Below, piece by piece: positions 3,373 through 25,171 of a DNA stretch of 64,000 bases. Below the pieces are notes generated by a model. The model saw nothing but the letters and a program-made list of their open reading frames with translations, did no database searches and was not told the origin of the DNA. The stretch is from positions 1 to 64,000 of the forward strand of contig CALEFA010000063.1 in the NCBI GenBank assembly GCA_937876775.1. The letters run 5' to 3'. Made by a program: the position numbers and the translations under genes. The stretch's first letter is position 1. Every line of letters begins with the position of its first letter. Origin of the DNA: an uncultured Rhodobiaceae bacterium (GTDB taxonomy: Bacteria; Pseudomonadota; Alphaproteobacteria; RS24).

Positions 3373-4764
3373 CTATTTCGGCGCAATCATGTCTTCGGGG
3401 CGGACAATGGCATCAAACTCTTCTTCCGTTACGAAACCGCCACCGACAGCTTCTTCACGCAAAGTGGTGCCGTTCTTGTGCGCTGTTTTGGCTACCGTCG
3501 TGGCGTTGTCATAGCCGATTTTCGGGGCCAAGGCTGTCACCAACATAAGCGAGCGTTCCATTAGGTTGCGGATGTTCGCCTCATTGGCCTCAATGCCGAC
3601 GACACAATTATCGGTGAAGCTGACCGCAGCATCGCCCAACAGGCGCATGGACTGAATAAGGTTATAAGCCATTACTGGCTTGAACACATTAAGCTCCATG
3701 TGCCCTTGCGTGCCAGCAATGGTGATGGTTGTGTGATTGCCCATTACTTGGGCGCAAACCATGGTCATGGCTTCGCATTGTGTTGGGTTGACTTTACCCG
3801 GCATAATCGATGAGCCTGGTTCATTTTCTGGCAGGCTCAGTTCGCCCAAACCCGAACGGGGGCCAGAGCCGAGCAAGCGAATATCATTGGCGATTTTATT
3901 CAATGAAGCGGCAATCGTGTTCAACATGCCTGACATTTCAACAAAGGCATCATGGGCCGCCAGAGCTTCGAATTTATTCTCAGCGGTAACAAACTCAAGA
4001 CCGGTGAACGATGCCACTTCGGCGGCAAAGGCTTCAGCAAAACCTGGCTTTGCATTCAGACCGGTGCCAACCGCCGTACCGCCTTGAGCCAGCGCCAAAA
4101 GCCGTGGCAGGGAGGTTTTGACGCGTTCAATGGCGTATTTCAACTGTGTCGCATAGCCAGAAAATTCCTGCCCCAACGTCAGCGGTGTGGCGTCTTGTAA
4201 ATGCGTGCGGCCAATTTTCACCACATCAACCCATTGCTCGGACTTGCTTTGCAGAGCGGCGTGCAAATGCTGTAGCGCTGGAATCAGGCGATTGGCGGCT
4301 TCTTCAGCGGCGCCAATATGCATAGCCGTAGGGAATGTATCATTGGATGACTGGCTGCAATTGCAATGGTCATTTGGGTGAACAGGCGTTTTCGACCCCA
4401 TTTCACCACCCATAAGCTCGATTGCCCGATTTGAAATCACTTCATTGGCGTTCATATTCGATTGCGTGCCGGAACCCGTTTGCCATACGACCAAAGGAAA
4501 ATGGTCGTTCAATTTACCTTCCGCCACTTCGGTTGCAGCTTGCACAATCGCTGCGCCAATGTCGCTTTGCAAATTATCCAGTTTCATATTGGCCTTGGCA
4601 GCGGCCATTTTTACAATGCCCAGCGCCCGCACCAAAGGTAGGGGCATGGTTTCGCCACCAATTTTAAAATTGCCCAGAGAACGCTGCGTTTGCGCGCCCC
4701 AATACCGATCGGCCTGCACATCTAAAGGGCCAAAGCTATCGGTTTCAATACGTGTATCAGCCAT
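3373..4764 (-). CDS. fumC: Fumarate hydratase, class II
   Basis: Converts fumarate and water to L-malate in the TCA cycle; iron-independent cytosolic tetramer. The 463-residue length matches FumC. The family signature [11 protein letters not shown] is present, together with the [10 protein letters not shown] substrate-binding segment and the [21 protein letters not shown] segment. I start at the ATG at 4764 ([12 protein letters not shown]), which has GGAG upstream, because the longer frame (24 extra residues) has no family counterpart. A small RHH gene follows within 6 bases. sspB ends 84 bases upstream in the same direction. Confidence 0.96.
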
Positions 4765-4847
4765 CGGGCATCTCCGCTCATAGATTAATCTGCAAGGGGA
4801 ATAGCATAGCTCGACGCTATCGCCAATATAGGCCACTCATTTAGCTG

Positions 4848-5348
4848 TTACTTGTCGCGGAAGCTGTCGAGGCTAATGACTTCACCGACCGGCTTTTCGT
4901 CGGTCTCTTGATCACTGCTGGCTTGGCTGACGAACAGGCTGCTTTCGTCATCGTCAAATGCGGTGTCATCCAAATCTTCGTCGGCGTCAAAGTCTTCATC
5001 TTCAAACATCAGGCCAAAAGCCACCGAGGGGTCGTAAAATTTACTAATCGCATCAAATGGCACAACCAGTGTTTCTGGCTGTTGGTTGAAGCTAAGACGC
5101 ACAGAAAAATGATCTTCTTCGACCGTTAAATCTTCAAACTGATTTTGTAAAACAATGGTGATTTCAAGGGGGTGGGCGGCGCGTAATTTGTCAGACATCA
5201 CCACGCCGTCATCTTGTGTGCGATAGGTAATGTAAAAATGATGCTGGCCAATCAAGCCCTTTTCAGCCGCTTCTGCAATGACGTCGCGCACCACGCTCAA
5301 TAACGCTTTTTGTGCTCGACTTGCATAATCTATTTTATCTTCAGACAT
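4848..5348 (-). CDS. sspB: SspB-like adaptor delivering ssrA-tagged proteins to ClpXP
   Basis: 166 residues with the alphaproteobacterial SspB (ClpXP stringent starvation protein B) fold pattern: N-terminal helix (YASRAQKALLSVVRDVIAEA), the conserved HHFYITYRT strand, a substrate-groove segment around FSVRLSFN...LVVPFDAI, then a long acidic linker and a C-terminal tail ISLDSFRDK. That tail matches the ClpX-binding peptide expected at the end of SspB. SspB binds the tmRNA-encoded tag and hands tagged proteins to ClpX. The gene starts only 24 bases beyond the last T of the ssrA terminator on the same strand, with AGGAAG as ribosome-binding site, so its target-maker and the adaptor are neighbours. 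Confidence 0.93.
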   Translation of the reverse strand: MSEDKIDYASRAQKALLSVVRDVIAEAAEKGLIGQHHFYITYRTQDDGVVMSDKLRAAHPLEITIVLQNQFEDLTVEEDHFSVRLSFNQQPETLVVPFDAISKFYDPSVAFGLMFEDEDFDADEDLDDTAFDDDESSLFVSQASSDQETDEKPVGEVISLDSFRDK

Positions 5349-17597: not shown

Positions 17598-18608
17598 ATG
17601 GAAATGCTATATGACCGCGATGCGGATGGTGAACTGATTAAAGGTAAAAAAGTGGCGGTAATTGGCTATGGTAGCCAAGGACATGCACATTTGCTGAACC
17701 TGCGCGACAGCGGCGTGACCGATATTTGTGTCGGCTTGCGTGACGGCTCAAGCTCTATTGCAAAAGCAGAAGCCGAGGGCGTGCCGGTCAAGTCAATTGC
17801 CGATGCGGCTGCTTGGGCTGATGTGGTGATGATTTTGACACCTGACGAATTGCAAAAAGATATTTATGCCGAAAGCATTGCCAATAATATCCGTGAGGGT
17901 GGCACGTTGATGTTTGCCCATGGCTTGGCCATTCATTTTGGACTGATTAAAGCGCGCCCCGATTTGGACGTATCAATGTGCGCCCCGAAAGGCCCTGGCC
18001 ACACAGTACGTGGTGAGTATCTCAAAGGCGGCGGCGTGCCATGTTTGGTTGCGGTTGCGCAAGATGCATCAGGCACAGCGCGTGAACTGGCTCTGTCATA
18101 TGCTTGCGGCGTTGGCGGCGGTCGTTCAGGGATCATCGAAACAACTTTCCGTGACGAATGTGAAACTGACTTGTTCGGTGAGCAGGCTGTATTGTGCGGC
18201 GGCGTGGTTGAGCTGATTAAAGCCGGCTATGAAACACTGACAGAAGCAGGATATCCGCCGGAGATGGCCTATTTTGAATGCTTGCACGAAGTCAAATTGA
18301 TTGTTGATCTGATTTATGAAGGCGGCATTGCCAATATGAATTACTCAATTTCAAACACCGCCGAATTTGGTGAGTATGTGTCCGGCCCACGGGTTGTGAC
18401 CAGCGACACCAAAGCAGAGATGAAGAAAATTCTCGAAGATATTCAGACCGGTAAGTTTACCGATCGCTGGATGCAAGGTGGTCAGGAAGAAATTAAAGAA
18501 TTCCGTGCGCAGTCAGCGGCTCATCCGATTGAAAAAGTTGGCGCTGAGCTGCGTTCAAAGATGCCATGGATCTCGGCCAATAAATTGGTTGACCAAGCAA
18601 AAAACTAA
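17598..18608 (+). CDS. ilvC: Ketol-acid reductoisomerase (class I, NADP)
   Basis: 336 residues, the class I length. Isomerises and reduces acetolactate in the second shared step of branched-chain synthesis. Rossmann motif [17 protein letters not shown], the [10 protein letters not shown] segment, and the metal-binding Glu/Asp region in [16 protein letters not shown] are all present. The start is the ATG at 17598, 8 codons inside the open frame, with AAGGAG upstream. A strong terminator follows directly. Confidence 0.96.
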
Positions 18609-18632
18609 TTGGCGAATTGTGCCATTGATAAA

Positions 18633-18660
18633 AGGGCTGCCATTTGGCGGCCCTTTTTGT
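18633..18660 (+). terminator. Rho-independent terminator after ilvC
   Basis: A nine-base-pair stem AGGGCTGCC / GGCGGCCCT (one G-T pair) with the loop ATTT is followed by TTTTTGTTTTTTT. It separates ilvBHC from the bufferin operon. Confidence 0.9.
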
Positions 18661-18734
18661 TTTTTTGCTTGCGATTTCTGCAGTTTCAAGGGCATAGTTA
18701 ATGCGTGATCAATAAAAAAAAGAAAGTCACAAAA

Positions 18735-19043
18735 ATGAAAAACTCTCTAACTCTAGTTGCCTTATCAAGTGCTATCGCTGTGACATTGGGCACAATGTCT
18801 GTCTCCTCCCCCGCCGAGGCCGCTAAAGCGAAAGAAAAATGCTATGGCGTTGCCAAGGCGGGAAAAAACTTGTGCGCCGCTGGGCCGGGAACGGTTTGCG
18901 CGGGCACGTCTAAGGTTGACTATCAGGGCAATGCTTGGATTTTAAAGCCGCGTGGAAAATGCGAAAAAATTTCCTTGCCCGATCAAGCCAATGGGCAGCG
19001 TCGGCATGGTTCGCTTGAGCCATTGATGCGTGATCCAGGCTAA
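18735..19043 (+). CDS. DUF2282 bufferin-type RiPP precursor (BufA1-like)
   Basis: 102 residues: a Sec signal peptide (about 1-29, ending SPAEA) and a short mature domain with four cysteines at 36, 47, 55 and 76, in the contexts [33 protein letters not shown] and RGKCEKI. This is the DUF2282 pattern now known as bufferin. Characterised members are exported copper-binding peptides whose cysteines are modified by a DUF692 oxygenase. The tail rich in Arg, Gln and Pro after residue 80 is the variable part. The ATG at 18735 is chosen because it starts the signal peptide; a GTG at 18705 is in frame. It heads an operon with the modifying enzyme 30 bases downstream. Confidence 0.88.
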
Positions 19044-19073
19044 ACGCTTGCAGATCGCCCGATTGGGGGTTGA

Positions 19074-19934
19074 ATGACGCAAGTTACACAAAGTTTAAGA
19101 GGTGTCGGGGTTGGGTTCAAACCCTGGCACTTTTCTGAATTGATGGAATGTCCGTCGGAACTTTCTTGGCTTGAGGTGCACGCCGAGAATTACATGACGG
19201 TTCATGGTGGAACGCGGGCTCAATTAGAGGCTCTGGCGGCACATTATCCAATAAGCGTGCATGGCGTCGGCCTGTCATTGGCTGGCGAGACGCCGCCTGA
19301 TGGCCGGCATATTGAAGCTTTTAAGCAGCTGATAGCGTGGCTACAGCCAGTGCAAATTTCCGAACATCTTGCCTGGTCGTCGCACCAAGGTGTGTATTTC
19401 AACGACCTATTGCCAATCAGCTATGATGATCTCAATTTCGAGCGTATTTGCGCTCACATTGACATGGTGCAGCAGGCCTTGGGGCGGTCGATATTGGTTG
19501 AGAATCCATCCGCCTATCTAACAATAGACAGCAGTGTTTGGCGCGAAGTTGATTTTCTGTCGGCTCTTGCTGCCAGAACTGGCTGTGGTTTGTTATTGGA
19601 TTTGAATAATGTCTATGTCTCGGCGCAAAATCAGCAATGGGACACGGCCTCTTATTTGCACAATTTTAATTATGATGTGGTCGGTGAAATCCATTTAGCA
19701 GGGTTTTACCGCGACACCGATGCGCTGGGTCATGAGGTGCTGATTGACAATCATGGCGCGCCGATTGACGAAGATGTGTGGCGACTGTTCGAGCAGCTAT
19801 GCCATGACATTGGCCCTTTTCCAACGCTGATTGAGCGCGACAATAATGTCCCGCCATGGTCTGACATGCGGCTAGAAGTGCAGCGTGCAAATCGTGTTCT
19901 GGCGTCCGCCGTAAATGCCAAGGTGCCAGCATGA
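19074..19934 (+). CDS. DUF692 multinuclear non-haem iron oxygenase (BufB/MbnB-like)
   Basis: 286 residues, TIM-barrel family of MbnB. The expected metal ligands are visible: His63 (SVHGVG), Glu97 (QISEH), Glu143 (LVENPS), Asp176/Asn178 (LLDLNNVY), His207 (EIHLAG), Asp225/His227 (IDNHGA) and Glu254 (LIERD). Enzymes of this family oxidise cysteine side chains of precursor peptides to oxazolone/thioamide or thiooxazole groups. GGGGG 5 bases before the ATG is the ribosome-binding site. The next gene overlaps by 4 bases (ATGA). Confidence 0.92.
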   Translation: MTQVTQSLRGVGVGFKPWHFSELMECPSELSWLEVHAENYMTVHGGTRAQLEALAAHYPISVHGVGLSLAGETPPDGRHIEAFKQLIAWLQPVQISEHLAWSSHQGVYFNDLLPISYDDLNFERICAHIDMVQQALGRSILVENPSAYLTIDSSVWREVDFLSALAARTGCGLLLDLNNVYVSAQNQQWDTASYLHNFNYDVVGEIHLAGFYRDTDALGHEVLIDNHGAPIDEDVWRLFEQLCHDIGPFPTLIERDNNVPPWSDMRLEVQRANRVLASAVNAKVPA

Positions 19935-20707
19935 GCCAAAGTATGAAGCGCACCGGTGAGAATTTTTATAGCGAATTTGCCGCCGCTTTGGTTGATCCAA
20001 ACGCTTCTTTACCGGCAAGTTTGCGCCATTCCGTTACCGGCCGGCACGAAGATGCGGCCGCGCGTTTCGCTGTTTACCGCAATAATGTGGCCTTTGGCTT
20101 GCGGCAGGTTCTGCGCGATAAATTCCCGCTCTTACGGCAGCTTTTGGGCGAGGAAACCTTTGAAAGCCTGATGGGCTATTATCTCGATGCAGAGATGCCC
20201 TCATCACCACTATTGTCTGAATTTGGCGCCACTCTGGCGCATTTTCTGGACACTTCTTCAGCCTTTGAAAGCCTTGCCTTTATTGGCGATGTGGCGCGTC
20301 TTGAGTGGGCCATGCAGCAAGCCTTTTATGCACCAGAGCATGAGCCGATGGCGACGGATCGACTGACCGCTTTGGCGCCGGATGATTTGGTTAATCTGCG
20401 TCTGCGCTTTGCCCCATGCGTGCATATTCTGACGTCCCCTTGGTCAATTTTTGAACTTTGGAAATTTTTGAGTGAAGAGGCCGCTGCGCCAGATTTCGAC
20501 AGTGTGGGCGGCCAGACTGTCATGATTTATCGCCATGATTACACAGCTCAAGTCGCGCTTTTGACGCCCGAGCAGCACCGTTTTTTGACCTTTCTCGCTG
20601 ACCAACGCTCGATTGGTGACGCGATGATTGAAGCCCATTTATCGCTTTCTGATTTTGACACCATTTTTATTCACCTACTGGAACATAAGCTGATTGTTTC
20701 ACAATAA
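19931..20707 (+). CDS. DUF2063 partner protein of the DUF692 oxygenase (BufC-like)
   Basis: 258 residues. The N-terminal part matches DUF2063 (often mislabelled a DNA-binding domain): a helical domain containing RFAVYRNNVAFGLRQVLRDKFPLLRQLLGEETFESL and a C-terminal beta-rich half with MIYRHD. In MNIO clusters such proteins are thought to hold the precursor peptide for the oxygenase. Start overlaps the end of the oxygenase gene (ATGA), implying coupled translation at similar levels. Confidence 0.88.
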   Translation: MSQSMKRTGENFYSEFAAALVDPNASLPASLRHSVTGRHEDAAARFAVYRNNVAFGLRQVLRDKFPLLRQLLGEETFESLMGYYLDAEMPSSPLLSEFGATLAHFLDTSSAFESLAFIGDVARLEWAMQQAFYAPEHEPMATDRLTALAPDDLVNLRLRFAPCVHILTSPWSIFELWKFLSEEAAAPDFDSVGGQTVMIYRHDYTAQVALLTPEQHRFLTFLADQRSIGDAMIEAHLSLSDFDTIFIHLLEHKLIVSQ

Positions 20708-20718
20708 GAGGAGCCTCC

Positions 20719-21273
20719 ATGACTTTTATCATTCGACTTAACCAAACTATAGCGCGGCAAATACATGCCATATTTGAACCTTGGCTGTTGCCGCTTGTCG
20801 CGCGGTTTGCTTTTGCCGCGGTCTTAATGAATTATTACTGGGCCTCGGCGATGACCAAAATCGGCGAAAGCTTATGGCAGCCGAGCATTGGCGCTTATTA
20901 CCAAATTTTTCCAGTGGCGACGGAAGCTGTTTCCTATGATGCAACGCAATTGAGCGGCTTTTATACATTTATTGTGTTGTTGGGCACTTATGCAGAATTC
21001 GTTCTGCCGGCTCTGATTGTTGTCGGCTTGTTTACTCGACTGGCGGCATTCGGGATGATTGGCTTTATTGTGGTTCAAACGCTGACCGATATTTACGGAC
21101 ACGGGGTGGATGCGGCCACCACTGGCGCTTTGTTCGACGCCGCCTCAGACGGGTTAATTTTTGATCAAAGATTACTCTGGGTAACTGTTCTTTTTGTTAT
21201 CTTCACACGTGGCCCCGGCACCTTGTCGCTCGACAAATTATTAGGCAGCGAAATGCACACCAATGAAATTTAG
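20719..21273 (+). CDS. DoxX-family membrane protein of the bufferin operon
   Basis: 184 residues with about four transmembrane segments (around 25-45, 78-100, 103-122 and 150-168) and the DoxX-like motifs RFAFAAVLMNYYWASAMTKIG and TYAEFVLPALIVVGLFTRLAA. DoxX-like proteins are frequent members of bufferin operons; the reaction is unknown and a redox role in the membrane is inference. It follows the DUF2063 gene by 11 bases with GAGGAGCC as ribosome-binding site. Confidence 0.82.
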   Translation: MTFIIRLNQTIARQIHAIFEPWLLPLVARFAFAAVLMNYYWASAMTKIGESLWQPSIGAYYQIFPVATEAVSYDATQLSGFYTFIVLLGTYAEFVLPALIVVGLFTRLAAFGMIGFIVVQTLTDIYGHGVDAATTGALFDAASDGLIFDQRLLWVTVLFVIFTRGPGTLSLDKLLGSEMHTNEI

Positions 21274-21303
21274 CAAATCTGGTTGTGCGTAATTGCAGTA
21301 ATG

Positions 21304-21333
21304 CATATTTGCAGTTATATAATTGCAAATATG
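21304..21333. promoter_or_regulatory. Perfect 10-bp inverted repeat at the LysR gene start
   Basis: CATATTTGCA (21304-21313) and TGCAAATATG (21324-21333) are exact inverted copies around a 10-base centre, GTTATATAAT, that itself contains TATAAT. A third related ATTGCA stands at 21292. The dyad ends on an in-frame ATG 7 bases before the preferred LysR start. This fits an autoregulatory operator covering the promoter. Confidence 0.6.
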
Positions 21334-21339
21334 AGACAA

Positions 21340-22254
21340 ATGGACTGGGATGATTTGCGGTTTTTCTTGGCGGTTGCCAGCGCTGGTAGCTTGTCGGCTG
21401 CGGCGCGCGCGTTGAACGTCAACACCACAACGGTGTTGCGCCGTATCGCTAATCTTGAAGAAGCGCTGGATGCGCGGCTGTTTGAGCGTCTGCGTTCGGG
21501 CTATGAGTTGACCCCGGACGGCACAAGATTGCTCGAGACATTGGGGCCGGTCGACCAACGGCTGACTTCTTTGAGCCGCGACTTTAAGGCCGGTTCGGAA
21601 AACTATCGCGGCGTGGTGCGGGTGAGCACTAGTGAGATGATTGGCGGCAGTCTTTTAGGCCCAGCCATTGCCAGATTTACCGCTCAAATGCCTGACGTCG
21701 CCCTAGATATTGTCACTGAAGCGCGGGTCACGAGTGCCAGTTCAGCGCCACGGGTGATGAATGGTTTGCGCGATGTTGATATTGCTCTGCGCCTCGAACG
21801 TCCCACTCAGGGGGATATGTTGGTGCGCAAACTGGCTGATATTGGCTATGGCCTGTATGCGCATGATGATTATGTCAAAAACCACGCCCCAGTGCCGGCA
21901 AGCGGCGATCTGGCAGGCCATGATATTATTGGATTTTCGGAAGAAGACCGGCCATTTGGGCCGATTTGGTGGTTGTCGCGGGCCGAACGCGCCGGCAATG
22001 TGGTGATGCGTTCGGGTAGTCCGATGACACGTGCCGGCGCTGTTCAGGCCGGTTCAGGCATTGGCGCTTTGCCATGTTTTTACGCCCAAAATCTGCCTAA
22101 TGTGCAATGTTTAGCCGGCCCCGAATTGCTCGGTGCCTTAGAGTTGTGGTTGCTAACGCGGTCAGATTTGGCGCGTCTTGGTCATGTGCGCGCGGTAATG
22201 GATTTCCTGATTGCCGAAGTGCAGGCAAATGCCCGATTGTTGGCGGGCGTTTAA
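21340..22254 (+). CDS. LysR-family transcription regulator
   Basis: 304 residues: an N-terminal winged helix-turn-helix (MDWDDLRFFLAVASAGSLSAAARALNVNTTTVLRRI, in two stretches), a linker helix, and a periplasmic-binding-like effector domain (from about residue 90). The start at 21340 matches the usual MDWDDLR beginning of this subgroup; 21331 is also possible. No good ribosome-binding site is seen, so translation may be leaderless if the TATAAT in the upstream dyad is the -10. It lies 66 bases after the DoxX gene in the same direction; a link with the bufferin operon is possible but not shown. Confidence 0.88.
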   Translation: MDWDDLRFFLAVASAGSLSAAARALNVNTTTVLRRIANLEEALDARLFERLRSGYELTPDGTRLLETLGPVDQRLTSLSRDFKAGSENYRGVVRVSTSEMIGGSLLGPAIARFTAQMPDVALDIVTEARVTSASSAPRVMNGLRDVDIALRLERPTQGDMLVRKLADIGYGLYAHDDYVKNHAPVPASGDLAGHDIIGFSEEDRPFGPIWWLSRAERAGNVVMRSGSPMTRAGAVQAGSGIGALPCFYAQNLPNVQCLAGPELLGALELWLLTRSDLARLGHVRAVMDFLIAEVQANARLLAGV

Positions 22255-22286
22255 GGCAAGGTAAAATTGCTTGCCAACGCTTTTTT
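22255..22286 (+). terminator. Terminator-like hairpin after the LysR gene
   Basis: GGCAAG (22255-22260) and CTTGCC (22270-22275) form a 6-bp stem starting directly after the stop codon. A TTTTTT run lies 5 bases further on. The gap before the T-run makes it weak. Confidence 0.45.
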
Positions 22287-22288
22287 CC

Positions 22289-22316
22289 TTGGATAAACAG
22301 AGATATGGGCTATGCT
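22289..22316 (+). promoter_or_regulatory. Predicted promoter of the leuA leader
   Basis: TTGGAT (22289-22294), a 16-base spacer and TATGCT (22311-22316). Transcription would begin near 22323, just upstream of the leader peptide gene. Confidence 0.45.
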
Positions 22317-22339
22317 CATTTATTAAGAGAGTGATTTCT

Positions 22340-22456
22340 ATGGTGGTTTGTGAGCGCACATTCAAAACTCAAAGCTCGGCACATTCAGCTGCTGAAGCTA
22401 TTGGTGCACGCCCTTTAACCCTTCGTCTACCTATCCTTCTTCTTATCTGCCCCTGA
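22340..22456 (+). CDS. leuA leader peptide (leucine attenuator), 38 aa
   Basis: ATG at 22340 with AAGAGAG 8 bases upstream opens a 38-codon frame. Its last 13 codons contain six leucines (TTA, CTT, CTA, CTT, CTT, CTT) and two isoleucines, ending RPLTLRLPILLLICP. The TGA stop lies inside the left arm of a long-range hairpin before leuA. Ribosome stalling at the leucine run when charged tRNA-Leu is scarce would prevent that hairpin or an alternative from forming. Leader peptides of this kind control leuA in other alphaproteobacteria. No coding role beyond regulation is expected. Confidence 0.75.
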   Translation: MVVCERTFKTQSSAHSAAEAIGARPLTLRLPILLLICP

Positions 22457-22494
22457 GTTCGGACAGGTCTCGACGACGCGTTCTCAGGGGGTTT
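22450..22494 (+). promoter_or_regulatory. Attenuator-like hairpin before leuA
   Basis: CCCCTGAG (22450-22457) pairs perfectly with CTCAGGGG (22483-22490); the 25-base loop carries the remaining leader. Only TTT follows (22492-22494), so the T-tract is short for a classical terminator. The left arm includes the stop codon of the leucine-rich leader peptide, so ribosome position decides whether it folds. leuA starts 53 bases downstream. Confidence 0.6.
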
Positions 22495-22542
22495 AAGGAA
22501 AAGCAAAAGACCGTTTGAAAAACACCTCGAGAAGGATGAAAA

Positions 22543-25171
<2,629 letters not shown>

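Follow-up and report, generated by a model that had tools for sequence, protein, structure and literature searches.

A four-gene operon in an uncultured Rhodobiaceae bacterium is in all likelihood a Buf1-type bufferin operon that works as its characterized relatives do. We place the probability of this reading at roughly 90%, a figure that, like the weights given to the alternatives below, is a judgement. The operon occupies positions 18735-21273 of the window, the whole stretch of 64,000 nucleotides that we analysed, and consists of bufA, bufB, bufC and bufD on one strand, with all open reading frames intact:

18735-19043, + strand: bufA, Buf1 (DUF2282) bufferin precursor, 102 aa (PF10048, 79.6 bits, cut-off 22.4, E=1.7e-22)
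19074-19934, + strand: bufB, MNIO (DUF692) maturase, 286 aa (PF05114, E=6.5e-94, profile positions 1-262 of 263)
19931-20707, + strand: bufC, DUF2063 partner, 258 aa (PF09836, E=8.8e-20, residues 13-106)
20719-21273, + strand: bufD, DoxX-like inner-membrane protein, 184 aa (PF07681, 26.0 bits, cut-off 23.6)

An earlier note on this DNA had proposed a four-gene bufferin-type operon here, and its genes, their order, the coordinates and the cysteine numbers all proved correct. The DUF692 enzyme that it called complete covers the Pfam profile almost end to end, and the partner that it assigned to DUF2063 matches that family and begins inside the preceding gene, the bufC start at 19931 overlapping the bufB stop, which ends at 19934, by ATGA. 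The last gene was likewise rightly read as encoding a DoxX-like membrane protein, with a score just above the Pfam cut-off; a bufD homologue was the fourth gene in many of the loci that we fetched (tblastn), the matches being strongest in alphaproteobacteria.

This four-gene core is that of the published Buf1 cluster (bufA1-B-C-D) of Caulobacter vibrioides, in which the same genes stand in the same order (PMC12452194), so that what we describe belongs to a known kind. In Cupriavidus and Legionella the cluster also goes by the name of GIG operon, and operons of this type are widely catalogued, with DUF2282 precursors in 4072 fully assembled genomes; as a bufferin operon, the one described here adds one further genome to a large known set. 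It resembles Buf1 in its four-cysteine DUF2282 precursor, a BufB that scores above the bufferin cut-off, the DUF2063 partner and the DoxX protein, and differs in that leucine and valine precede its central cysteines, no sigma factor gene adjoins it, NrsF is absent from the genome, and the cassette is inserted between ilvC and a lysR housekeeping gene. The oxazolin and EGKCG captophorin systems (hvfABCX, fonABC) share with it an MNIO, a DUF2063 partner, a DoxX protein and thiooxazole chemistry on cysteines of a Sec-exported precursor (PMC13419390, PMC13097082), but the 102-aa precursor of the window has no EGKCG repeats, and its BufB and BufD fall well short of the oxazolin families (207.5 bits against a cut-off of 360 for HvfB, NF003818, and 26 against 80 for HvfX). 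Methanobactin clusters (MbnABC) have in common with it the MNIO fold, the metal residues and a copper-binding product, whereas the operon in the window has a putative Sec signal rather than a leader peptide, a DUF2063-type partner and a BufB that reaches 60.7 bits against the MbnB cut-off of 325 (TIGR04159).

BufA can be divided into a putative Sec-type signal (residues 1 to approximately 30), a core (33-81) and a tail (82-102). The core motif is that of Buf1, and the four cysteines of the 102-residue DUF2282 precursor that the earlier note had described lie at C36, C47, C55 and C76, where they align with those of the homologues (approximately 97 sequences). Read by eye, the N terminus begins with basic residues, continues into a hydrophobic segment and closes with the Ala-rich AEAAKA, features that are aligned in the homologues. 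The precursor had been called secreted; the putative Sec-type signal would agree with export, but the periplasm is the expected destination and we saw no sign of release from the cell. The tail, which falls outside the Pfam model, had been thought peculiar. Comparison across DUF2282 homologues did not bear this out and ruled out the tail as unique or as the mark of a new class: 30 of 98 homologues, most of them from alphaproteobacteria, end in GSLxxLxRD, and an SPTGxGQ tail is common to 43 others, mostly from Pseudomonas and Burkholderiales. A search of PDB sequences with BufA returned nothing useful. Shimia sagamensis has two tandem DUF2282 precursor genes before a single maturase (L077:4288-4500 and 4729-4932).

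The maturase was placed by its match to NCBIfam NF050167 (MNIO_BufB equivalog, ‘MNIO family bufferin maturase’), at 340.7 bits (cut-off 310); all 30 aligned BufB homologues also matched this model, and the window BufB was below the NCBIfam cut-offs for HvfB, ApyH, MbnB and ChrH. Its putative metal and catalytic residues (H63, H98, E143, D176, N178/N179, H207, D225, H227, E254 and D256) are near-invariant across 99 homologues. Three residues of HvfB, N175, D242 and H244, are essential by mutagenesis (PMC13419390), and we paired them with their counterparts in BufB by reading motifs. An AlphaFold model of BufB (mean pLDDT 90.3, pTM 0.89) was closest in the PDB to 3bww (E=3e-20, the best match), TglH and MbnB. 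The earlier note had named a structural model lacking iron-binding residues as what would speak against its reading. No such loss is seen, because the putative ligand and base residues are conserved and the model matches these three structures. BufC is 258 aa long, against 250-260 aa for a PME-type 1 partner, with its DUF2063 match confined to the N-terminal half and a score of 48 bits to the NCBIfam HvfC RRE family, below the cut-off of 142. Searching PDB sequences turned up no relative of its C-terminal, putative RRE half, nor anything of use for BufC or BufD. The alignment was made without the loci whose chosen stretch contained stop codons. An internal stop codon was noted in the aligned bufB stretch of Pseudomonas lactucae (L048:5001-5843), which may be a pseudogene or a sequencing error.

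Modification in Buf1 falls on the two central cysteines, which become thiooxazoles; the first and last cysteines are linked by a disulphide, and copper is bound by the product (PMC12452194). A related enzyme builds the 5-thiooxazole with the carbonyl oxygen of the residue that precedes the cysteine (PMC13097082). By analogy with these systems, we infer the following chemistry, order of steps, export and copper binding for the operon in the window. BufA would be made with a Sec signal, and the signal and the BufC partner would present it to BufB, a predicted cytoplasmic multinuclear iron oxidase. At C47 and C55, BufB would create thiooxazole rings, each of which incorporates the carbonyl of the residue that precedes the cysteine. 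The modified BufA would then be exported via Sec, a C36-C76 disulphide would form, and the product would be expected to bind copper in the periplasm, with BufD, the DoxX membrane protein, in a presumably accessory role. The metal, the modified residues and the DoxX role had all been left open in the earlier note; the first two have been answered in print for the family (copper and the central cysteines; PMC12452194), and the third is described as open for such clusters as well (PMC13097082, PMC12452194).

All four buf genes share 80-88% amino-acid identity with their counterparts in a same-genus genome. Measured against the same-genus sister G002, dN/dS is 0.116 for bufA, 0.130 for bufB, 0.140 for bufC and 0.084 for bufD, and 0.006-0.04 for the neighbouring genes ilvB, ilvN, ilvC, lysR, leuA and mreB (dS 0.22-0.59). 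The operon is thus under purifying selection, yet evolves faster than its housekeeping neighbours. Chance is excluded by the 80-88% conservation of four genes together with dN/dS values of 0.08-0.14, and these values also rule out a pseudogene for the operon as a whole.

An intrinsic terminator sets the operon off from the gene before it:

18630-18657, + strand: ilvC intrinsic terminator, 12-pair stem (7 G-C), loop of 4, then a T tract

As the earlier note had it, this terminator stands in front of the operon and separates ilvC from bufA; a comparable stem with a T tract can be made out downstream of ilvC in the aligned sister genomes G002 and G001. A scan of positions 18500-22600 gave four sigma-70-like sites against 3.8 expected, none of them before bufA, and an alignment of the upstream regions showed no clear motif. 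The order ilvB-ilvN-ilvC-lysR-leuA-mreB is a backbone in the family, and the bufferin cassette lies between ilvC and lysR in the window genome (G000), G002, G006 and G013, preceded in G013 and G006 by approximately 1.7-3.6 kb of other DNA. Bufferin genes are found at another site in G004 and G014, and the ilvC-lysR interval holds no cassette in G004, G005, G008, G010, G011, G012 and G015. Altogether, 6 of 28 family genomes gave an intact bufferin match. In G001, of the same genus, a deletion scar lies between intact ilvC and lysR (L122:2976-3231): bufB and bufC are gone, codons 1-45 of bufA are fused directly to bufD at approximately codon 132, and the bufA frame meets a stop shortly beyond the junction. 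The adjacent LysR gene (21337-22254) was considered as a bufferin regulator and set aside; it is probably not the regulator of the operon, because ilvC-lysR-leuA-mreB stays together in seven family genomes that have nothing between ilvC and lysR. In G013 (genus g5; L126:3708-5440), the gap of approximately 1.7 kb between ilvC and bufA contains small lipoprotein-like open reading frames on the opposite strand, for example one of 178 aa with a Gly-rich ‘GAVVGGLLGAAIGN’ stretch; they are absent from the window genome.

The copper P-type ATPase model TIGR01511 had no match in the window genome, which is rated 100% complete, and was matched in 14 of 14 control genomes. Within the family, a CopA-type ATPase was found only in G004, G006 and G014, all of which have bufferin genes (Fisher p=0.006), with absences uncertain in the many other family genomes that are incomplete. 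The idea that the operon substitutes for copper export, in a trade-off between the two, is not supported, because ATPase and bufferin go together and family ATPases occur only beside bufferin loci. A sigma factor with an NrsF anti-sigma gene is present in part of the Buf1 clusters only. NrsF is missing from the whole window genome and a sigma gene from the genes adjoining the operon; the feature being optional, this does not exclude membership in Buf1, but copper induction is for the same reason not supported here.

The sole point of the operon that appears unusual, as judged from the sequence comparisons, is a greasy residue before both of the expected target cysteines:

18870-18872, + strand: codon 46, Leu (TTG), precedes the central cysteine C47
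18894-18896, + strand: codon 54, Val (GTT), precedes the central cysteine C55

We fetched 97 precursors, counting that of the window. The residue at position 46 is Asp in 92 of them, Asn in 2, Ala in 1 and Gly in 1, and that at position 54 is Thr in 69 and Ser in 27; Leu and Val occur in the window only. We also scanned 385 alphaproteobacterial genomes with a DNA pattern and obtained 62 matches that carry the bufferin core motif, again including the window (nine matches without the core Ala-Gly were set aside by a simple rule). The first site was Asp in 57 of these, Gln in 2, and Gly, Asn and Leu (the window) in 1 each; the second was Thr in 33, Ser in 28 and Val in the window alone. The sister G002 has Asp at the first site (GAT, against TTG in the window) and Ser at the second (TCT, against GTT). 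The two cores differ by five amino-acid changes over 49 residues, and the probability that five randomly placed changes include both pre-cysteine sites is 0.0085, a post hoc value, as the sites were noticed first. Because Leu46 and Val54 are unprecedented in the sequences compared, turnover at C47 and C55 is not assured. Modification of these cysteines is still plausible, since the related enzyme FonB once acted on a substrate in which Val precedes Cys (NVCGG motif; PMC13097082).

How these residues are read bears on how well this member performs, not on its family membership, and the alternatives that follow therefore overlap with the main reading. An error of assembly or base calling as the source of Leu46 and Val54, the true precursor being canonical, seems very unlikely to us: the two residues are seen in a single genome, a metagenome-type assembly in 80 contigs, and a run of four bases differs around codon 46, but two separate multi-base differences that leave the reading frame intact are atypical of errors, and most of the nearby differences from the sister are silent. 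Real changes could instead mean that a precursor of the bufferin kind has drifted, with Leu46 and Val54 impairing modification and the operon heading for loss as in G001. Multi-nucleotide differences from the sister at both sites (GAT to TTG, TCT to GTT), the joining of bufA codon 45 to bufD codon 132 in the G001 scar, an intact locus in only 6 of 28 family genomes and a dN/dS (0.08-0.14) several-fold above that of neighbouring ilv, leu and mreB (0.006-0.04) are consistent with such decay. It is nevertheless unlikely, given four intact frames, a dN/dS well below 1, the retention of the four cysteines and the BufB active-site residues, and the single instance of a Val-Cys substrate (NVCGG) modified by FonB (PMC13097082).

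A third account, possible though doubtful, is that BufA, BufB and BufC have co-evolved for hydrophobic pre-cysteine residues, which would give thiooxazoles in less polar surroundings, with altered copper affinity or redox properties. The changes to Leu46 and Val54 arose together in an operon still under purifying selection, and BufB itself has two residues that might compensate for them: Trp18, unique among 99 homologues and Arg in the sister, which by approximate mapping lies near the substrate-contact region of FonB (Arg15/Arg16), and Ala147, present in 2 of 99 and Thr in the sister. Site 18 is variable, however, and 40 residues differ between the window and sister BufB proteins. We accordingly offer only tentatively the fuller picture of a bufferin in which branched hydrophobic residues precede both thiooxazole-forming cysteines (Leu-Cys and Val-Cys in place of Asp-Cys and Ser/Thr-Cys), with a co-adapted BufB and a copper site whose polarity is changed, in a host without a recognizable copper-exporting P-type ATPase.

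Returning to the reading of a working Buf1-type operon, its variations (Leu46/Val54, the missing copper P-type ATPase and the scar in G001) are modest in weight and testable. In a host without a copper P-type ATPase, periplasmic sequestration, rather than that export route, may carry copper defence. The window and its sister form a natural experiment, as they differ exactly at the residue before each expected target cysteine; because this residue would contribute the ring carbonyl, the pair could test the tolerance of BufB and the tuning of copper binding.
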